NCBI GenBank assembly: GCA_029265815.1
Contig: JAJUGU010000001.1
Span: 310,001-374,000, forward strand
Length of the DNA: 64,000 nt
Reading direction: 5' to 3'
Origin: Anaerolineaceae bacterium
GTDB lineage: Bacteria > Chloroflexota > Anaerolineae > Anaerolineales > Anaerolineaceae
Part shown: in pieces, positions 18,189 to 30,310 of the stretch
Layout of the letters: each line of letters begins with the position of its first letter
Position numbering within the stretch: position 1 is the stretch's first letter
Translations under genes and position numbers: made by a program
The notes under the pieces: generated by a model
Told to the model about the DNA's origin: nothing
Database searches by the model: none
What the model saw: only the letters and a program-made list of their open reading frames with translations

Positions 18189-19313
18189 TTCACATGCTTT
18201 AGAAAGATGTTCGTCAAAGGTTCGAGAAAAATCATGTAAACCTGACCCGTCACATTTAGCGCGAAAATAGTAATAATCCGTCTGTTCGGGGTATGCCACT
18301 GCAAGGATTGAAGGTAAATCAGGATTCGAAATAGGCGTCGGGGGAAGACCAGTAATTTGATAGGTGTTATAAGCAGAATTGATACCAAGGTCATTGACCG
18401 ACAAAGGTGTTTTCCACCATCCACCCCAGATTTCTGAATAACCCAGGGAATATTGAACCGTGGGATCCGTTTCAAGCCTCATCCCATTAGCCAGCCGGTT
18501 ATAAAATACTGAGGCAATCTTAGCTCGTTCTTCATCCGCAAAGGTCTCTCGCTGTATGATGGAAGCCAGCGTAATCCCTTCGTAAAGCGTTAACCCTTGT
18601 GCTTCGATTGCAGCACGAACATCGCTAGAAACACTCCCTTCAAAACGTTTAACAAACAATAATATTAGATCTTCAGCTGAAATCTTTCGATTAATTTCAT
18701 AAATACCCGGGAAAAGAAATCCATCAGCCGATGGAAAATCCTTCACAAATGTGGAAGTGATCAATAATGAAGGAGTATGTACCAGGCGTAGAAAATCTTC
18801 AGGGTTTACTTCGATACCTGAAGATGGAAGTGAAGCAGCAATTTCTTCTGCGCGCCAGCCTGGGTATATGTAGAAAGGTACTGTTGCAGTATAAGTTGAC
18901 TGGATCGCTTTAGCGATCTCAATTCCGGTCATAGATGGTGAGAGAATGAACTTTCCTGCTTTGATCGTAGAATCCAATCCCTTGTAAATCAAGTAAGCTC
19001 TAAAATCCTTACTATCAGCAATCAAACCAGCTGCTTCCAAACGTTCCGCGATACTATTGACGGTTTCTTCTGGCTTGATCTCAAATTCAACTTCTCCTGA
19101 AGTAATAGATACGGGAAATACTAAATCAGCGCGACCAATTAATACCTGCAGACTATAATTCCAGCGGGTTATTGAATTCAATGAATACCCCGGACTATCA
19201 AAAAAATAGCCTGCGAGAAGTGGAACCCCAAACCATAATATCGCCATACCAATCAGAAATAGTAATAATAAGAGGAAGAATATTCCTACATTGTGAGTCG
19301 ATTTCCTGCTCAT
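18186..19313 (-). CDS. mltG: Endolytic murein transglycosylase MltG
   Basis: Cleaves nascent peptidoglycan strands and is thought to set glycan length. The 375-residue protein has one N-terminal transmembrane helix (about 11-33), a LysM-like region, and the YceG domain with the catalytic Glu in LASIIQRET and the ETDPTVQYSLG and LPPTPISNP motifs. I start at the ATG at 19313, 5 nt after AGGAG and overlapping the ruvX stop by one base (TGATG). Third gene of an operon with the membrane protein at 19738-21237 and ruvX. Confidence 0.93.
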   Translation of the reverse strand: MSRKSTHNVGIFFLLLLLFLIGMAILWFGVPLLAGYFFDSPGYSLNSITRWNYSLQVLIGRADLVFPVSITSGEVEFEIKPEETVNSIAERLEAAGLIADSKDFRAYLIYKGLDSTIKAGKFILSPSMTGIEIAKAIQSTYTATVPFYIYPGWRAEEIAASLPSSGIEVNPEDFLRLVHTPSLLITSTFVKDFPSADGFLFPGIYEINRKISAEDLILLFVKRFEGSVSSDVRAAIEAQGLTLYEGITLASIIQRETFADEERAKIASVFYNRLANGMRLETDPTVQYSLGYSEIWGGWWKTPLSVNDLGINSAYNTYQITGLPPTPISNPDLPSILAVAYPEQTDYYYFRAKCDGSGLHDFSRTFDEHLSKACE

Positions 19314-19741
19314 CAAAGCTCCTGCTCAAATTTTCTATCGAGATATGACTGCAAAAACATGGCTGCAGCCCGGTCATCCATATGCCCCAACCTGTCCTTC
19401 TTTTTTACGCCTAACTCGATCCGTACCTGTCTTGCATCCCTGGTACTGTTGCTTTCATCCCACAGTTCCACAGGGATCGAACCTATTGACCTAAGCGTCT
19501 CTACAATTTTTTTGGCATGCCTTGTCTGACGCGTCTCTTCGTCTTCTAGACCAGGTACCTGTCCCACGATGATCAAGACAGCATCATTGTCTATTGCTAT
19601 CTTTAAAATCTGCCGGCAGTCTTCTAGCAACTTTACATGGTTGACCACAGTCAATGGCGCTGCAATCATTGCAGACGGATCGCTAATGGCGATGCCGATT
19701 CGCTTCTCACCAGGATCCACTGCAAGTATTCGTCCTTTCAT
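19313..19741 (-). CDS. ruvX: Putative pre-16S rRNA nuclease RuvX/YqgF
   Basis: A 142-residue RNase H-fold protein. The first strand AVDPGEKRIGIAISD carries the catalytic Asp, VGQVPGLEDEE the second acidic region and HMDDRAAAMFLQSYL the C-terminal Asp pair. In E. coli YqgF matures the 5' end of 16S rRNA. It overlaps the upstream gene by ATGA and the downstream mltG by one base; the yqgF-mltG adjacency is common in bacteria. Confidence 0.93.
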   Translation of the reverse strand: MKGRILAVDPGEKRIGIAISDPSAMIAAPLTVVNHVKLLEDCRQILKIAIDNDAVLIIVGQVPGLEDEETRQTRHAKKIVETLRSIGSIPVELWDESNSTRDARQVRIELGVKKKDRLGHMDDRAAAMFLQSYLDRKFEQEL

Positions 19742-22203: not shown

Positions 22204-22782
22204 ATGACTTCCTATAATTCCAATCACCGCGACCAGGTTAGGAGGCTAGTTCAAAATAAACTGGAACAAAGACCGGTTTATATTGATACAGAAACAACCG
22301 GTCTTAATCGCTCAGATGAAATCGTTGAAATCTCGATCGTTGATTTTGACGGTTCGCTTTTATTCACAACACTGATTAAACCAAGTCAAGCAATTCCAAT
22401 GGAGGCAGAAAAGATTCATAGAATAACCAATGAAATGGTCAGTTCAGCTCAGCCCTGGCCAATCATTTGGCCACAAATCCGCAGTCATCTCTACGGCCGA
22501 GTGATTGCTGCTTATAACGCACCCTTTGATCGGCGTATGATGGAACAATCTCATGCCAGATATCGGCTGCCGTGGCGCGAAAAACTTGAATTCTTAGATG
22601 TGTTATCACTCTATTCAGAATACCGTGGAGTGTGGGATCAGAATCGCAATTCTTACCGATATTTTAAATTAGAAGAAGCAGGCAAGTTTTTTAACATCTC
22701 TATCCCTAATGCTCATCAGTCGACTGCAGATGCTTTATTAACACGGGCAGTTTTACACTCCATCGCCGGGATACCCTATTGA
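22204..22782 (+). CDS. DnaQ-type 3'-5' exonuclease (DEDDh)
   Basis: A 192-residue stand-alone exonuclease. ExoI is IDTETTG (catalytic Asp and Glu), ExoII AYNAPFD with the second Asp, and ExoIII HQSTADALLT with the His and last Asp of the DEDDh set. It resembles the epsilon proofreading fold, but there is no polymerase domain. The downstream gene starts at a TTG that overlaps this stop codon, so it is translationally coupled to an AddB-like protein, a helicase, a nuclease and RecJ. A role in end processing rather than replication proofreading is my inference. Confidence 0.88.
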   Translation: MTSYNSNHRDQVRRLVQNKLEQRPVYIDTETTGLNRSDEIVEISIVDFDGSLLFTTLIKPSQAIPMEAEKIHRITNEMVSSAQPWPIIWPQIRSHLYGRVIAAYNAPFDRRMMEQSHARYRLPWREKLEFLDVLSLYSEYRGVWDQNRNSYRYFKLEEAGKFFNISIPNAHQSTADALLTRAVLHSIAGIPY

Positions 22783-24935
22783 ACGCAAAATACACATACT
22801 CATCTGAAAAATTTGATCTAACTACAGAACAAGATTCTGTAATAAATTCATCATTAAATGCCTGTATGTTGTTATCTGGCGAAGCCGGAACCGGCAAATC
22901 AACCGCTGGAGCTTTTCGACTCAGATGCCTGATTGAACAAGGAGTCCCGGGTGATTCTATTTTAATCCTTGTGCCCCAGCGCAGCCTGGCAGCGCCATAT
23001 TTTACTCAGATCCAATCCCATGATTTTCCATCCAGTAGCATGCCATCAATCCTGACATTCGGTGGGCTTGCCCAACGAATGATTTCTCTATTCTGGCCGA
23101 TCATTGCCAAAAATGCGGGGTTTTCTTTTCCAAACAAACCCTGTAGATTTCTCACATTAGAAACTGCTCAATACTACCTTGCCACAATTTTTGATCCACT
23201 GCTTCAACAAGGTTACTTCGATAGTTTAACGATCGACCCCAACCGCCTTTACAGCCAAATCATCGATAATCTTAATAAATCAGCTGTGGTTGGTTTTCCG
23301 CCGTCAGAAATCAGTCGCCGTCTTACACAAGCTTGGGCAGGCAAACCGTCGCAAACAGTCATCTACCAGCAGGGACAGGAATGCGCTCTCCTGTTTCGAG
23401 ATTATTGTCTAAAAAATAACTTGCTCGACTTTTCATTGCAGTTGTCTGTATTCGTAGACAATCTCTGGCCTTCACTAGTTTGTAAAGAATACCTCCAGCA
23501 GACATATCGCCACTTGATCTATGACAATATTGAAGAAGATATTCCGGTTGCCCATGATGTAATTGAGGAATGGCTACCGAAATTTGATTCAGCGCTTCTG
23601 ATTCAGGATACTGGCGGAGGTTATCGGTCCTTTTTAGGAGCTGATCCACAAAGCAGCCAACGGTTCTTTAATTTATGCTCTAACAAACTAATTTTTTCAA
23701 ATTCGCAGGTAAAAACATCAGAATTAGATACCCTTGAAAGTGCCCTGGGTGAGAGTCTGCTAGAACACAAACTAATCAATCAATATTACTCTCGTAATTC
23801 TGTGCTTCCTTTTTCGGTACTATCCTTTCGTTTCTATCCAGAAGTTCTGGATTGGGTCGTTAGAGAGATCCAGGAGTTAATCGATAAGGAACTTGCCGAA
23901 CCTTTTGAAATCGCAGTTCTAACGCCATTTCTTAGTGATGCTTTACGATTTTCATTTTCAGCACGGTTTTCTGAAGCTGACATCCCATTTTCTACTTATC
24001 GCCCTTCACGCAGCTTGAGTGACGAACCAGCTGTTCAAACCATCCTTACTCTTGCCAAGTTAGCAAACCCCGGTTGGGGATTAAAACCAACACAGCAAGA
24101 GGTACGCAGCGCATTTTTAGGATCAATTGCCAATTGCGATCTGATTCGCGCAGATCTTTTATCAAGAATGCTATACCGTCCATCTGACGATCCGGCAAAA
24201 CCATTAAAATCCTTCGATAATGTTAATCACGAAATGCAGTCAAGAATTACCTTTACAATTGGTGAAAAATTTGAGTCATTACGAGTCTGGCTCTTTGAAA
24301 ATTCAATCAAAAACACTGAGTTTTTCGATCATTGGATCAGCCGCTTGTTTGGAGAAATACTTTCGCAACCTGGTTTTGCCCTGCATAATGACTTCGATTC
24401 TGCAAATGCTGTCTCTCGTCTGATTGAATCACACCGGAAATTTCGACAGGTATTGCAACCCACTGATGGTCTTCAGATCACCGGATCAGCGCAAGAATAT
24501 ATCCGTGTTCTTGAGCAGGGCATCTTAGCAGCCCAATCACTCACTACATGGAATGAGCAAACCAATACCAACGCAGTCTTTCTCTCACCCGCCTTTTCAT
24601 TTTTAATGACAAATCGTCCGGTTAAATATCAATTCTGGATTGATATTGGCTCACAGGGTTGGTGGAGTCGTTTAGACCAACCCTTAACTCAACCTTTTGT
24701 ACTCAATCGCAATTGGCCAGATGGAAAAATATGGACAGACTTCGACGAAGTTTACAATAACCAGCATACACTCGCGCGTATCACTGCAGGACTCATCAGA
24801 CGTTGTAGGTCGCACATTTTCATGTGTACTCTCGGCTATAACGAACAAGGCATGGAAGAACGGGGAGCCTTACTCATGGCCATGCAGAACATCTTGAGGC
24901 AAGTCAATTTCGTCAGAGAGGTTCCGCATGTTTAA
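22779..24935 (+). CDS. SF1 helicase-like protein with altered motif II (AddB/RecC-like)
   Basis: A 718-residue protein with an intact Walker A (GEAGTGKST, residues ~35-43) and a motif Ia-like LTFGGLAQR, but the expected DExQ of motif II reads YDNIEED. The C-terminal motif VI area retains only ITAGLIRRCRSHIFMC. It lacks a PD-(D/E)XK nuclease domain. This matches the architecture of AddB-type pseudo-helicases that read the DNA strand and Chi-like sites, minus their nuclease. Start is TTG 22779 in a TTGA overlap; no ATG is better placed. It overlaps the next gene by 8 nt. Orthology to AddB is inference from motifs and context. Confidence 0.72.
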   Translation: MNAKYTYSSEKFDLTTEQDSVINSSLNACMLLSGEAGTGKSTAGAFRLRCLIEQGVPGDSILILVPQRSLAAPYFTQIQSHDFPSSSMPSILTFGGLAQRMISLFWPIIAKNAGFSFPNKPCRFLTLETAQYYLATIFDPLLQQGYFDSLTIDPNRLYSQIIDNLNKSAVVGFPPSEISRRLTQAWAGKPSQTVIYQQGQECALLFRDYCLKNNLLDFSLQLSVFVDNLWPSLVCKEYLQQTYRHLIYDNIEEDIPVAHDVIEEWLPKFDSALLIQDTGGGYRSFLGADPQSSQRFFNLCSNKLIFSNSQVKTSELDTLESALGESLLEHKLINQYYSRNSVLPFSVLSFRFYPEVLDWVVREIQELIDKELAEPFEIAVLTPFLSDALRFSFSARFSEADIPFSTYRPSRSLSDEPAVQTILTLAKLANPGWGLKPTQQEVRSAFLGSIANCDLIRADLLSRMLYRPSDDPAKPLKSFDNVNHEMQSRITFTIGEKFESLRVWLFENSIKNTEFFDHWISRLFGEILSQPGFALHNDFDSANAVSRLIESHRKFRQVLQPTDGLQITGSAQEYIRVLEQGILAAQSLTTWNEQTNTNAVFLSPAFSFLMTNRPVKYQFWIDIGSQGWWSRLDQPLTQPFVLNRNWPDGKIWTDFDEVYNNQHTLARITAGLIRRCRSHIFMCTLGYNEQGMEERGALLMAMQNILRQVNFVREVPHV

Positions 24936-27168
24936 GCCTCGTCTTAATCAAATCGAAATCCTGGAATATGAAAAGGGGAAAATGGGTATTTCCGCCGTTC
25001 CTGGAAGTGGGAAAACCCACACCCTTTCAGCTCTTGCTGCCAATCTCATCCTCCGTGAAAAGATCGGCAATGAGCAAGAAATCTTGATCGTCACGCTGGT
25101 CAATTCAGCCGTCGACAATTTTTCTTCACGAATTGCGGGTTTTATCAGAGAAGCTGGATTACTCGAAAATGTTGGTTATCGTGTGCGTACCCTTCACGGT
25201 CTGGCGCATGATATCGTGCGCGAACGGCCCGATCTGGTAGGAGTATCCAATCAATTTTCAATAATCGATGAAACCGAATCTTTCAGGATGATTGATCAAA
25301 TCTCCACCGAATACAGCCGGGTTCACTCAGAAGTGGAAGATTTTCTGATAAAACCAGATGTAGACCGCAATAAGGCACATCGCTCCAGAAATGGCTGGAA
25401 TTCACTTATCACCTCGCTTAATCAAAGCTTTATCAACCAGGCAAAAGATCTAGATCTTGAACCGGATGAAATCCGTTTAAGGATGAACAAGCACCAACTC
25501 AAAGACATCCTTCTTGAGATGGCAGTTGAGGTCTATGCTCAATACCAGCGCGGGTTGAAATATCGTAACGCTCTTGATTTCGCCGATTTGATCCGCCTGG
25601 CCTATCGCGCATTAATATCCGATCAACAATACCTTGAACGATTAAGATCCCGATGGCCTTATATTCTCGAAGACGAAGCTCAGGATTCTTCACGCACGCA
25701 GGAACAAATTCTTCGCTTACTCACTGGTCCCGATGGAAATTGGGTACGTGTGGGTGATCCTAACCAGGCGATTTACGAAACCTTTACAACTGCAAACCCG
25801 AAGTATTTACGGTCATTCTTGAAAGAACCTGGTGTAACTGCCCGCAGCTTACCTCACTCGGGCCGTTCCAGTCGCTGCATCATCAACCTGGCCAATTCGC
25901 TAGTTATGTGGACACGTGAAAACCATCCAGTACATGAATTACGTTCATCGCTAGATTTGCCATTGATTCTGCCCACACCTCCGGGAGACCCACAGCCCAA
26001 TCCGCCTGATCTTCCGAATGCGATTTATATCAAATACACAAAATCCACAGCAGACGAAGAAATTCGTAATGTGGTCTCTTCGATAAAACGTTTTCTAGAG
26101 AAGGAAGAAAACCAGCAAAAAACCATTGCTGTCCTTTGTCCAATTGGGTTACATGGCGAAAAAGTGGCTCAAGCACTGCAAAATGCCGGGGTCGAAATTG
26201 TGGAAATGCTTAAGAGCACTCAAACCACGCGTACAACTGCCCGGGTTCTGGAAAAGATCCTACTCTACCTTGCTAATCCATCCGATCCGAAAAACTTCGC
26301 TCAAGCCTTTTCAACTTATAAAAATTCACTTGAACATAATGATGAAGAAAAACAATTATTGCAGTCAATAACATCAACTATTCGTAAATGCCGTAATCTG
26401 GAAGATTTATTCTATCCTGCTTTGGGATCTACCTGGCAGACTTGCATTGAAAGCAGCCTTAGAGCAGATCAGATCACAGAATTACTGGGCGATTTCCGTG
26501 AGAAGTGCATCCGCTGGCATCAGGCAACCATCCTGCCTATTGATCAATTAGTCTTGACCATAACCAATGACCTCTTCACGAACCCTGCAGATCTAGCATT
26601 AGGTTATAAGTTAGCACTTTTGTTAGAGTTCAGTGCAGAGCTTCACCCGGAGTATGAACTGGCAGATTTTGCCATGGAACTTTCCGATATTTCAGGGAAT
26701 GCCAGAAAGTTTTCTGGTTTTAGTGATGAAGATACCCGTTTCGACCCTGATATGCATAAGGGAAAGGTATTTGTTTCCACTTTTCATAAGGCCAAAGGGC
26801 TTGAATGGGACCGGGTATATCTGCTTTCAGTCAATAATTATGATTTTCCATCAGCTCAATCTGACGACAAATACATAGGAGAAAAGTGGTTTATTCGAGA
26901 GAATTTTGATCCGCAAGCTGAAGTACTGAGTAAACTCGACTCCCTTTCAAAAAATGATATTTCTCAATTATTGCTTCCGCCAGGAGAAGCAACCCTCAAA
27001 GCCAGGTTGGAATATTCCGCCGAAAGGTTACGTCTGTTATTTGTGGGAATTACCCGCGCCCGCGAATCACTTATGATCTCATGGAACACTGGAAAGGGAG
27101 AAAGCCGCATTGCTTTGCCTCTCGAATCGCTTTACACCATATGGAAAGGCACACATGAAACTGCCTGA
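24928..27168 (+). CDS. SF1A (UvrD/AddA-like) DNA helicase without nuclease domain
   Basis: A 746-residue helicase with all SF1A motifs: motif I VPGSGKTHT, Ia in TLVNSAVDNF, TLHGLAH, motif II EDEAQDSS, motif III VGDPNQAIYETF, IV region SGRSSRCIINLANS, motif V STFHKAKGLEWDRVYLL and motif VI FVGITRARESLMI. It should be an active 3'-5' translocase. Unlike AddA or RecB (over 1100 residues) it ends after motif VI, and the nuclease is encoded separately just downstream (overlap 14 nt). Overlap with the pseudo-helicase gene upstream suggests a stoichiometric complex. Confidence 0.9.
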   Translation: MFKPRLNQIEILEYEKGKMGISAVPGSGKTHTLSALAANLILREKIGNEQEILIVTLVNSAVDNFSSRIAGFIREAGLLENVGYRVRTLHGLAHDIVRERPDLVGVSNQFSIIDETESFRMIDQISTEYSRVHSEVEDFLIKPDVDRNKAHRSRNGWNSLITSLNQSFINQAKDLDLEPDEIRLRMNKHQLKDILLEMAVEVYAQYQRGLKYRNALDFADLIRLAYRALISDQQYLERLRSRWPYILEDEAQDSSRTQEQILRLLTGPDGNWVRVGDPNQAIYETFTTANPKYLRSFLKEPGVTARSLPHSGRSSRCIINLANSLVMWTRENHPVHELRSSLDLPLILPTPPGDPQPNPPDLPNAIYIKYTKSTADEEIRNVVSSIKRFLEKEENQQKTIAVLCPIGLHGEKVAQALQNAGVEIVEMLKSTQTTRTTARVLEKILLYLANPSDPKNFAQAFSTYKNSLEHNDEEKQLLQSITSTIRKCRNLEDLFYPALGSTWQTCIESSLRADQITELLGDFREKCIRWHQATILPIDQLVLTITNDLFTNPADLALGYKLALLLEFSAELHPEYELADFAMELSDISGNARKFSGFSDEDTRFDPDMHKGKVFVSTFHKAKGLEWDRVYLLSVNNYDFPSAQSDDKYIGEKWFIRENFDPQAEVLSKLDSLSKNDISQLLLPPGEATLKARLEYSAERLRLLFVGITRARESLMISWNTGKGESRIALPLESLYTIWKGTHETA

Positions 27169-27964
27169 ATTCTTTAGCTTCAACCAGAACAATCTTCAGG
27201 ATTATGAAGATTGTGAATTTAGATTCCTCTTAAAACACGTCCGGCAACTGAATTGGCCAGCAGTGGAGAGTGAACCACTCTTATTACAAGAAAAAAAGAT
27301 TGAAATTGGTTATCTTTTCCACCAACTCGTACAAAGATTTTTTAGTGGTATGAGTCCTATATTGCTTACAGACACTATAGAAGATCCTATACTCCAAGAG
27401 TGGTGGGGTTACTTCCTGGATCTCAATTTATTGGAACAGCCAGGAGTAAAATTCGCCGAAAAAATGATATCCGTACCATTCAACGGATACAGGCTTGTCG
27501 CGAAATATGACCTCCTTATATTGCTTGATAACGGGCATATCGAAATCTATGACTGGAAAACATCCATTTCTCAACCCCATCGGCATTTCTTGATCGATCG
27601 CATGCAATCACACGTTTACCCTGCATTGCTGATGCTTCAACAATCCTGTTCTTCTTTTATTGCAAGACCTTCACCTGGCGATATCAGTATGACATACTGG
27701 TTCCCTTCTCATCCGCAAAGTCCAGTTTCATTTACCTATTCACCCGATCAATATGAAAAGGATTTACAGATCTTAGGAAATAAGATCAAAGAAATTGTTG
27801 CCAAAGAGGAAAATGAGTTTGAAAAGACTAACGATGTCAGAAAGTGTAAATACTGTCACTACCGTTCTCTCTGTGAACGTGGAATTAAAGCTGGAATAAT
27901 AAATGAAGATTCCAATAGTGCTGATGGCGATAACCCCTTTGAATTCGATTTCAACGCGTTATAG
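27155..27964 (+). CDS. Stand-alone PD-(D/E)XK nuclease with Fe-S cluster (Cas4/AddB-nuclease type)
   Basis: A 269-residue RecB-family nuclease. Motifs in order are GYLFHQLVQRFF (conserved His), AKYDLL (Asp), IEIYDWKTS (Asp-x-Lys core) and MQSHVYPALL (QxxxY). Four cysteines, C20 and the C-terminal set C231, C234 and C240, match the iron-staple arrangement of AddB and Cas4. The ATG at 27155 lies inside the helicase gene, 14 nt before its stop, with AAAGG upstream. No CRISPR array or other cas gene occurs here, so the helicase pair is the obvious partner. Confidence 0.85.
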   Translation: MKLPEFFSFNQNNLQDYEDCEFRFLLKHVRQLNWPAVESEPLLLQEKKIEIGYLFHQLVQRFFSGMSPILLTDTIEDPILQEWWGYFLDLNLLEQPGVKFAEKMISVPFNGYRLVAKYDLLILLDNGHIEIYDWKTSISQPHRHFLIDRMQSHVYPALLMLQQSCSSFIARPSPGDISMTYWFPSHPQSPVSFTYSPDQYEKDLQILGNKIKEIVAKEENEFEKTNDVRKCKYCHYRSLCERGIKAGIINEDSNSADGDNPFEFDFNAL

Positions 27965-27973
27965 GTCAACTTA

Positions 27974-30310
27974 ATGAATAAAATTCCACATATCGATCTC
28001 AATTGGGTGACACCTGACTCCCCCTCTATACCTGACAATTTTCGACAACATTTGAATCTGCCGGATATTGTGCTTCAAACCTTAATGAGGCGCGGTTTCA
28101 ATAATGCATCAGCGGCATTAAGTTTTATTGACCCATCTAAATACTATCCAACTCCTTCAACTGAATTACCCGATCTGGCAAAGGGTATAGAGCGAGTTGC
28201 AGACGCGATACGGGCTGGGAAAACAATCGGTATTTGGGGGGATTTTGATGTAGACGGACAAACTGCCACATCGGTATTGGTTTCTACATTACGACATATA
28301 GGTGCTAAGGTAGTGTTCCATATACCCGTGCGTGATGTTGAGTCTCATGGAATCAAGATTGACAGGTTGCAATCCTTTTTAGACAGCGGTGTGAATATAC
28401 TGATCACATGTGATACCGGTATTACGGCTCATGAGCCTATAAGCTATGCGCAGTCACGCGGAATTGATGTGATCGTTACTGATCACCACCTGCTTCCTGA
28501 CGTCTTACCCCCTGCATATGCTCTGATTAACCCCAGGCGGCTTCCTTTTGACCATCCGCTGAGTTCACTACCCGGTGTTGGGGTTGCCTATAAATTTTCA
28601 GAGTCGTTATTGGAACAGTTCAACGCAGGCGCGTTTGCGTCATCGATGCATGACCTGGTCGCGCTTGGAGCAATTGCTGACCTGGCAGACCTTTATGGCG
28701 ATACTCGCTATCTGGTTCAAATGGGGCTCAATCATATTCGCAGTACGCCCCGTCCATCAATTGCAGCCATTCTGCGAGCGGCTGAAATCGAACAGACTCG
28801 CTTCTCTGAAGAACATGTCTCTTTTGCCCTGGCTCCCCGCTTAAATGCTGTTGGTCGTCTTGCAGATGCAAATCCGATGGTCGATTTCCTTCTCTCAGAA
28901 AACCAGGATGTAATTCTCCCCACAGTCAATCAGGTTGAGGAATTAAATGCTAGACGGAAGATTCTCTGTGATCAAGTTTTCAACGGCGCGCTGGCATGTC
29001 TCCAACGAGACCGTTCGCTTCTTGATCAACCAATCTTGATAATGGATCATCCTGATTGGCCTGCAGGTGTGGTAGGCATTGTTGCAAGCCGTCTTGTTGA
29101 GATGTTCCACCGTCCTGTCATTTTACTGGTTTCGTCGCCTGGTCAACCCATGAGAGGGTCAGCCCGCTCAGTGACTGGTATTGACATCACAGCTGCCCTT
29201 GGTCAAAATCAAAAACTTCTGCTTTCCTTTGGTGGGCACCCTATGGCTGCAGGCATGTCGCTATTACCAGATAATTATGCGGCGTTTAAACGCGGAATGA
29301 GCAGATCTGTGGCGCAACAAGCCAGTCTCTACCAGGTATCGAACGATCTTGTTATTGACAGCTGGGTTTCTCCAGCCTCGTTTTCACTGGAGTTAGTCAA
29401 ATCTTTCGATTTGCTGGCTCCCTTTGGCCCCGGTAATCCACCATTATTATTTGCAGATCACTCATTGAGTATCGTGGATACTACACCAGTTGGAAAGATG
29501 AAAGAACATCTGCAAGTTTTCGTAGAAGATTTGGCCGGTAATCAAACGAAACTAATCTGGTGGAATGGTTCGCGCTTGCCTCTGCCAGAAGGAAAATTCG
29601 ATCTGGCATATACTGTTCATGCCAGTAACTACCGTGGTCAAGAGGGGGTTCAATTTGAATGGGTAGATTTTAGGCAAACCAACGAATCAACATTTACAGA
29701 AGTACAGTCAAAACACAAGAAAATAACCAACCATGATTACCGAGGTTCAGAGCGATCACTGGTTGATCTCAATCGATTGTTAACAGAAGAAGATTGCCTT
29801 GTGTGGAGTGAAGGTACATTCGATTCAATCATAAATAGCGTGAAGCGCAGCGAACTCCATCCTTCCCAGAAGTTAATCCTCTGGTCAACACCACCCAGTC
29901 TTGAGTTAGTAGAAATAATTATCCATAAGGTCAAACCAAGTAACATTTATTGGTTTTTGCAAACTCCGCTTGAACACAATCTAACCAACTTCACGAGAAT
30001 TCTTGCCAGGATCATCAAGAGTGGCATTAACCAACAACAGCATGAATTCGATCTCGAGAATATCGCGGCTCAAACAGCTCTTTATTCCAGCATCATTGAA
30101 TTAGGTTTGAAATGGTTGGCATCTGAGGGACATATCACTGTCACTCCGATTTCATCAATGGTTTTCGAGGTGAAAATGGGTGGAATGAAAGATAACCAGA
30201 CATGTCAAATCCATAAACAAGCATTATTAAGATCATTTGATGAACTGAGGGCCTTTTCAACCTTCTTGAAGCGTGTGGACTTAGATTCATTGAATCTAAA
30301 TCTTGGATAA
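27974..30310 (+). CDS. recJ: Single-stranded-DNA-specific exonuclease RecJ
   Basis: A 5'-3' exonuclease of the DHH superfamily, 778 residues. The phosphoesterase motifs are DFDVDGQT, CDTGITAHEP, VTDHHLLP (DHH) and the DHHA1 signature GGHPMAAGMSL, followed by the OB fold (FDLLAPFGPGNPP). The last ~210 residues form an extra domain as in the ~786-residue Bacillus RecJ (ssDNA-exonuc_C). It follows the Fe-S nuclease by 9 bp as fifth gene of the DNA-processing operon, and can supply 5' end resection. Confidence 0.94.
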   Translation: MNKIPHIDLNWVTPDSPSIPDNFRQHLNLPDIVLQTLMRRGFNNASAALSFIDPSKYYPTPSTELPDLAKGIERVADAIRAGKTIGIWGDFDVDGQTATSVLVSTLRHIGAKVVFHIPVRDVESHGIKIDRLQSFLDSGVNILITCDTGITAHEPISYAQSRGIDVIVTDHHLLPDVLPPAYALINPRRLPFDHPLSSLPGVGVAYKFSESLLEQFNAGAFASSMHDLVALGAIADLADLYGDTRYLVQMGLNHIRSTPRPSIAAILRAAEIEQTRFSEEHVSFALAPRLNAVGRLADANPMVDFLLSENQDVILPTVNQVEELNARRKILCDQVFNGALACLQRDRSLLDQPILIMDHPDWPAGVVGIVASRLVEMFHRPVILLVSSPGQPMRGSARSVTGIDITAALGQNQKLLLSFGGHPMAAGMSLLPDNYAAFKRGMSRSVAQQASLYQVSNDLVIDSWVSPASFSLELVKSFDLLAPFGPGNPPLLFADHSLSIVDTTPVGKMKEHLQVFVEDLAGNQTKLIWWNGSRLPLPEGKFDLAYTVHASNYRGQEGVQFEWVDFRQTNESTFTEVQSKHKKITNHDYRGSERSLVDLNRLLTEEDCLVWSEGTFDSIINSVKRSELHPSQKLILWSTPPSLELVEIIIHKVKPSNIYWFLQTPLEHNLTNFTRILARIIKSGINQQQHEFDLENIAAQTALYSSIIELGLKWLASEGHITVTPISSMVFEVKMGGMKDNQTCQIHKQALLRSFDELRAFSTFLKRVDLDSLNLNLG

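Follow-up and report, generated by a model that had tools for sequence, protein, structure and literature searches.

A candidate AddAB-like helicase-nuclease of Anaerolineae with its AddB-like chain divided between two genes and accompanied by a second RecJ

In the mycobacterial helicase-nuclease AdnAB, a motor and a nuclease are present together in each of the chains AdnA and AdnB, and HerA-NurA is a DNA-end resection machinery. RecBCD, AddAB and AdnAB are described as the bacterial helicase-nucleases that initiate recombinational break repair (PMC6452273, PMC5030088), and AdnAB is reported in Actinobacteria only, according to the former paper. In AddAB, the AddA motor travels along the 3' strand, and both exit channels are lined by a nuclease; binding of Chi by AddB is thought to take the 3' strand away from the AddA nuclease, and the 5' strand continues to be degraded (PMC4027173). 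AddB is an inactivated helicase that keeps its nucleotide site; Chi is bound by this region, and the complex with Chi is affected by the binding of ATP (PMC4824097). Here we describe a cassette of five consecutive, tightly packed open reading frames (ORFs) on the plus strand at positions 22204-30310 of a 64,000-nucleotide window (contig JAJUGU010000001.1, positions 310,001-374,000, assembly GCA_029265815.1) from an Anaerolineaceae bacterium of the class Anaerolineae. A pseudo-helicase (PsH), a helicase (Hel) and a stand-alone nuclease (Nuc) would form a single helicase-nuclease, driven by ATP and related to AddAB and AdnAB, whose AddB-like chain is divided into two proteins, with a dedicated RecJ. 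We give this reading a probability of about 0.58. Its basis is computed: the folds predicted for PsH and for Nuc, a catalytic residue lost from PsH while the nucleotide loop is kept, the homology to the two halves of AddB, the co-occurrence of the genes and the presence of four of them as a block on a plasmid of another phylum. Literature searches, with most subscription papers outside their coverage, found no description of this split system.

PsH is encoded at 22779-24935 (+, TTG start, 718 amino acids (aa)). According to the library scans, PsH matches UvrD and DEAD of Pfam, both below threshold, and no family of NCBIfam; other profile searches gave generic helicase matches and nothing more specific, and PDB sequence searches with single cassette proteins gave nothing useful. 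The window protein was aligned with those of 29 of the 33 named loci (L009, L014, L017 and L034 were left out; in all alignments of PsH, Nuc and Hel, the rows drawn from the loci end before the last codon). Among these 30 proteins, UvrD is matched in 28 and ADDB_N in four (E ≤ 0.1). The Walker A loop is located at residues 34-41, in which Gly39 and Lys40 are invariant, and the fuller pattern GxGK[S/T] is found in 28 of the 30. Motif II reads IYDNIEED at residues 247-254, so that the catalytic Glu is replaced by Asn, and YDNIEED is present in all 30 proteins. The canonical DExQD, GDxxQ and motif V patterns are present in none of them, whereas the corresponding patterns of superfamily 1 (SF1) are present in 23 or 24 of 24 aligned Hel proteins. 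An inactivated helicase retaining its nucleotide site is suggested for PsH, as is described for AddB (PMC4824097).

The predicted structure of PsH, with a predicted local distance difference test score (pLDDT) of 88.2, has a complete SF1A motor fold. The model was matched to UvrD (Z 30.1, root-mean-square deviation (rmsd) 3.4, 458 residues), AdnB (Z 25.4, rmsd 4.7, 612 residues) and AddB (Z 22.6, rmsd 6.3, 601 residues). Many genomes of the class encode proteins resembling AddA and AddB, about 1,000-1,200 aa long, and 11 of the AddB-like ones served as the AddB reference profile. Using hhalign, PsH was aligned with this profile at 97.8% (E 8.4e-13) over 618 columns, covering AddB columns 13-692, which are the motor part. 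The scores against AddA (93.9%, E 1.5e-7) and against Hel (77.7%, E 1.9e-5) are below that against AddB.

Nuc is encoded at 27155-27964 (+, 269 aa). The ORF-calling program places its start at the TTG at 27110, and the ATG at 27155 is favoured by the homologues. Nuc matches PDDEXK_1 at 81.8 bits; the profile searches gave weak nuclease matches and nothing more. The Cas4 profile scores 18.4 bits, below its cut-off of 65, and neither Cas1 nor Cas2 is shown as a match for any of the five cassette proteins in the Pfam, NCBIfam and PADLOC-type library scans. In the alignment (the window and the 21 named loci with Nuc, L017 left out), Cys20, Cys231, Cys234 and Cys240 are invariant in all 21 nucleases, and so are His56, Asp119, Asp133, Lys135, Gln151 and Tyr155. 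The four Cys residues are placed as for an iron-sulfur (Fe-S) cluster, which Nuc may therefore carry. The special residues of PsH and Nuc are conserved across the aligned homologues and, on this comparison, are not due to chance. By hhalign, Nuc corresponds to AddB columns 777-1069 (97.8%, E 1.2e-12), and the value against AddA is 15.5%. The predicted structure (pLDDT 84.8) was best matched to the AdnA nuclease, residues 785-1039 (Z 18.6, rmsd 3.2, 216-221 residues), followed by an argonaute-associated Cas4 family (Z 15.8, rmsd 3.4, 219 residues), AddB (Z 15.3, rmsd 3.7, 233 residues) and CRISPR Cas4 (Z 13.1, rmsd 5.8, 196 residues). Long open frames in two genomes, G350 and G395, had raised the possibility that Nuc is fused to another protein; inspection of these sequences showed distinct ORFs for Nuc and RecJ, and the fusion was rejected.

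Hel is encoded at 24928-27168 (+, 746 aa) and is an SF1A, UvrD-like helicase with matches to PF00580 (165.8 bits) and UvrD_C (74.3 bits). The Pfam scan detected helicase-type domains, no PDDEXK match and no C-terminal nuclease domain. The AddA profile (71.2 bits) and the recB profile (90.6 bits) score far below their cut-offs of 707.65 and 696.05, respectively. By hhalign, Hel is aligned with the AddA motor at 99.9% (E 1.4e-37). Of the 27 named loci with Hel, L005, L008, L017 and L023 were left out of the Hel alignment.

Compared with AddAB of the Bacillus subtilis type, the cassette appears to hold an SF1A motor, an inactivated SF1-like partner and a PD-(D/E)XK nuclease of the Fe-S type, and PsH is without most SF1 motifs, as is the helicase-like region of AddB. 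The differences are that the halves of AddB, one chain there, are two genes here (PsH and Nuc), that the AddA-type nuclease has no counterpart on Hel, and that a second RecJ is added. AdnAB is similar in that the modelled fold of Nuc is nearest to the AdnA nuclease and that PsH covers the AdnB motor; however, AdnAB combines motor and nuclease in two subunits, whereas the cassette has one nuclease, in its own gene. RecBCD is similar in that each complex has a single active nuclease and that RecC is a pseudo-helicase partner (for RecC, PMC4824097), whereas the nuclease of RecB lies in the RecB chain itself. The preliminary description, made from the DNA letters, had proposed a split AddAB-like enzyme of helicase, pseudo-helicase and Fe-S-type nuclease, pointing to a Walker A with YDNIEED at motif II, an SF1A helicase with all motifs, and the four Cys residues of the stand-alone nuclease. 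All these features recur in the homologues, and the proposal is supported by predicted structures, by co-occurrence and by the profile comparison, in which PsH aligns with the motor part of AddB and Nuc with the nuclease part.

The co-occurrence survey covered 121 genomes from 46 families of the class, each with a completeness of 90% or more, with E thresholds set by us for each query (PsH 1e-15, Hel 1e-90, Nuc 1e-25, AddB 1e-6, RecJ extension 1e-5). Such searches can miss weak matches: PDDEXK_1 gave two matches in the genome of the window in one search and one in another. Contig ends can also make genes appear dispersed or absent. PsH was found in 71 genomes, Hel in 69 and Nuc in 61. Hel is present in 69 of the 71 genomes with PsH and in none of the 50 without it, and the corresponding numbers for Nuc are 61/71 and 0/50. 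Each of the 27 families with PsH has one or more members with Hel and with Nuc, and neither gene was found in the other 19 families; in the three families of mixed presence (f8, f94 and f96), the counts of PsH, Hel and Nuc are identical. PsH and Hel are within 2.5 kb of each other in 45 of 69 genomes, farther apart on one contig in four, and on separate contigs in 20, a count blurred by contig ends. For Nuc and Hel, the distance is at most 2.5 kb in 31 of 60 genomes. Of the 32 testable cases among the named loci, 24 have Hel within 1 kb after PsH. The loci of Longilinea arvoryzae (L011) and Bellilinea caldifistulae (L029) contain PsH, Hel and Nuc together. The gene order described for the window thus recurs in related genomes, though the genes are often dispersed. 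Because the co-occurrence persists in genomes with dispersed genes, the link among PsH, Hel and Nuc does not depend on synteny. Nearly all genomes of the class that bear PsH have a single match to it, and in a sample of the phylum it is present in 8/8 genomes of the window's family and 17/17 of family f2 of the same order. The tree distances of the cassette parts run parallel (r 0.78-0.93). In the PsH tree, families f5, f13, f8 and f106 each form a clade, f2 forms one together with six unlabelled named loci, and the six f1 sequences do not (the smallest clade holding all six has 60 tips).

In the window, the four joints between the five ORFs are a 4-nucleotide (nt) TTGA overlap, overlaps of 8 and 14 nt, and a gap of 9 nt, and the ORF calls and the joint check agree with the layout first described. 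An ORF of 280 aa ends 17 nt before the first gene of the cassette, and an L,D-transpeptidase ORF (PF03734) begins 34 nt after the last. With these neighbours so close, the edges of the transcription unit are not sharp. The promoter scan gave no more than shuffled sequence (13 vs 20.5), and the terminator scan gave about the same (9 vs 9.1). ORFs comparable in size and place, a likeness in these two respects alone, flank the cassette at several homologous loci. The two neighbours, neither of which is known to act on DNA, are almost as close as the cassette genes are to one another, and this would fit an ordinary cluster in which unrelated repair genes share a promoter. Such a cluster is highly improbable: the genes co-occur over 27 families though 24 of 69 genomes have PsH and Hel more than 2.5 kb apart or on different contigs, and four of them stand in the same order on a plasmid of another phylum, as described below.

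The RecJ of the cassette (RecJ-ext, 27974-30310, +, 778 aa) scores 448.5 bits with TIGR00644 (cut-off 396.9) and is over the cut-offs of PF01368, PF02272 and PF17768, which correspond to the DHH, DHHA1 and RecJ OB domains. Two RecJ matches over cut-off were found in the genome: a 598-aa frame elsewhere (510 bits) and the cassette copy (450 bits). Compared with the RecJ/RecFOR pathway, the cassette copy is thus a proper RecJ match, and RecO is matched in the genome; the difference is that it is a second copy with an extra C-terminal region. This extension of about 207 aa (29687-30307) has a sub-threshold PF10141 match alone. Its profile matches 53 of the 121 genomes, all with PsH (53/71 vs 0/50 without PsH). 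In the class survey, RecJ lies within 1.5 kb after Nuc at 30 of 58 testable sites, where any RecJ found by profile was counted, the genome of the window and G331 were left out, and one site had too little room. RecJ adjoins Nuc also in genomes where PsH and Hel sit elsewhere, and it follows Nuc in 18 of 20 testable cases among the named loci. These results indicate that RecJ-ext is a fourth, dedicated member of the system, and the earlier proposal that RecJ belongs to it holds good, on stronger grounds than those first offered. For the first gene of the cassette (22204-22782, +, 192 aa), the preliminary description was right on identity: the product is a DnaQ-type 3'-5' exonuclease, with matches to RNase_T of Pfam (62.1 bits) and DEDDh of PADLOC (104.8 bits). 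Its place in the core was not upheld. The gene adjoins PsH in 14 of 30 testable named loci, and the DnaQ profile matches none of the five proteins searched on the Salinibacter plasmid described next; the exonuclease is therefore a local companion and at most an accessory of the cassette.

Of the 41 genomes of the class in the phylum sample, 33 gave long PsH matches (E of 1e-90 or lower; one match is split into two pieces). The 260 genomes of the phylum outside the class gave no such match, their best score being 43.1 bits. Beyond the phylum, genome contigs were scanned once with short peptide patterns of the window PsH, and tblastn was used. The tblastn search finds PsH on plasmids of Salinibacter (40% identity) and Ilyobacter (20%), and confinement to the class was rejected. 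Plasmid pSR56 of Salinibacter ruber M8 (Rhodothermota; NC_014028.1, 10001-17884) has the four genes PsH, Hel, Nuc and RecJ arranged as in the window and all on one strand, with identities of 40, 41, 38 and 39%, respectively. Its PsH has ADNVEEG at motif II, in which DN is retained. The plasmid copy suggests that these four genes suffice to move as a unit. In the trees of PsH, Nuc and RecJ, the Salinibacter copy is nested among the sequences of the class; for PsH, the support for this position is 0.958 and 0.967, and that for the nearest neighbours is 0.18. A literature search on pSR56 gave nothing relevant. The Ilyobacter polytropus plasmid pILYOP01 (NC_014633.1, 7983-9956) encodes a remote PsH relative of 657 aa with VDNLEN at motif II, and its annotated neighbours are shown as neither helicase nor nuclease genes.

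Several points weigh against one AddAB-like machine. On pSR56, the four genes share the plasmid with defence-like genes: type I restriction-modification genes and those of a DpdF-like helicase and a DUF262 protein. The scores of Hel with the PcrA, Rep and UvrD profiles exceed those with the AddA and RecB profiles. In 10 of the 71 genomes with PsH, four of them in one family of six, no Nuc was found. The Fisher values of the survey ignore the relatedness of the genomes, and the strand that we assign to Nuc below is taken from AddAB. The genome also has a NurA match that exceeds the Pfam cut-off, on a contig other than that of the cassette (C19:26446-27228). AddB-profile matches were found in 25 of the 71 PsH genomes and in 13 of the 50 others (Fisher p 0.32), which shows no exclusion; these 38 matches (E ≤ 1e-6) include some weak ones in shorter frames, none of the 121 genomes has a match over the curated cut-off, and divergent AddB may be missed, the profile matching 3 of 14 control genomes (over cut-off in one).

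The neighbourhood on pSR56, where an HTH-M78 peptidase regulator and a 202-aa ORF precede the four genes, would suit an anti-phage or anti-plasmid defence in which PsH, Hel, Nuc and RecJ degrade foreign linear DNA and the likeness to AddAB is one of mechanism, not of role. Hel is also scored well by the GajB and RTasHel profiles of PADLOC (among the best 25 of 49 families). GajB profiles, however, also catch UvrD-type helicases in general. Gabija is similar to the cassette in this UvrD-like helicase, whereas no GajA, OLD or TOPRIM match is shown for the five proteins (for Hel, among those best 25 of 49 PADLOC families). Defence is unlikely, since PsH occurs as a single match per genome and throughout the window's family and f2, and the parallel tree distances and the co-occurrence of dispersed genes are as for a vertically kept function. 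In addition, no relative was found in viral contigs scanned with two peptide patterns or in phage records.

The profile preference of Hel and the genomes in which Nuc was not found, together with the presence of RecJ-ext and RecO, could alternatively be understood if PsH and Hel were a repair helicase that processes gaps or restarts forks together with RecJ-ext, in a pathway of the RecF type with which Nuc is only loosely associated. We consider this quite improbable, as Nuc is found in none of the 50 genomes without PsH, lies near Hel in about half of the genomes with both, and accompanies PsH and Hel on the plasmid. In the PsH genomes without a match, Nuc can be lost, replaced or missed. Four of the six genomes of family f5 (G144, G247, G287 and G397) have PsH and Hel and no Nuc match at E 1e-25; Nuc is lost, replaced or diverged there.

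A further idea is that the AddAB-like enzyme stands in for a missing AddAB. In the genome of the window, the UvrD-helicase matches are two, a strong one in a 744-aa frame on contig C17 and Hel; the PDDEXK_1 matches are also two, Nuc and a weakly Cas4-like protein (C1:105345-105731, a 226-aa ORF with weak Cas4 profile matches); and the AddB profile gave no match. Thus AddAB, RecB-type and AdnB-type enzymes were not found in this genome at the sensitivity of these searches. The replacement itself is unproven. With the AddB matches in 25 of 71 PsH genomes, strict replacement of AddAB was rejected, and with the NurA match, the cassette was rejected as the sole resection machine of the genome. Because of these two results, the system cannot be regarded as a simple replacement of AddAB, and the two do not exclude each other. 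HerA-NurA is similar to the proposed machine in serving DNA-end resection, and differs in that NurA is encoded on another contig; a system of the HerA-NurA type may also exist in this genome. Another helicase-nuclease architecture occurs in genomes of the class, with ORFs in which a UvrD-like helicase (DEYQD) is fused to a C-terminal CxxCx5C and PDDEXK_1 (L078 362-3313, 984 aa; L080 1087-3939, 951 aa).

A likely role of the AddAB-like machine is the recombinational repair of DNA ends. Hel would unwind from the break, moving 3'-5' on the 3'-ended strand. PsH would perform no unwinding; it would hold, and perhaps read, the 3'-ended strand, in the way that Chi is read by the pseudo-helicase of AddB. 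Nuc would take the position of the AddB/AdnA nuclease and cut the 5'-ended strand, and RecJ-ext, RecJ being 5'-3' in polarity, would trim this strand further. If the geometry of AddAB is kept, the 3'-ended strand would be spared from the start without a switch, because the nuclease in the AddA place is absent, and a 3' tail for RecA would be left. The RecO of the genome is a possible partner for RecA loading. We extend this tentatively, as a somewhat unlikely proposal, to a machine of three or four proteins that is hard-wired to be recombinogenic: the nuclease of the 5' strand alone is kept, a dedicated RecJ is added, 3' tails would arise from the first turnover with no Chi switch, and PsH would be a strand holder that binds and does not hydrolyse ATP.

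If the AddAB-like reading is true, the cassette represents a further type of helicase-nuclease, in which the motor, the pseudo-motor and the nuclease are each a chain of their own. The parts could then be removed or swapped singly, so that the control of the pseudo-helicase over which strand is cut would be directly testable. The co-existence with AddB-like proteins in some genomes raises the question of why a cell has two such machines. Upstream of the cassette and on the opposite strand, the window also encodes a RuvX/YqgF Holliday junction resolvase (19313-19741, -), flanked by a YceG-like ORF and by an ORF of 499 aa that matches Baseplate_J marginally.

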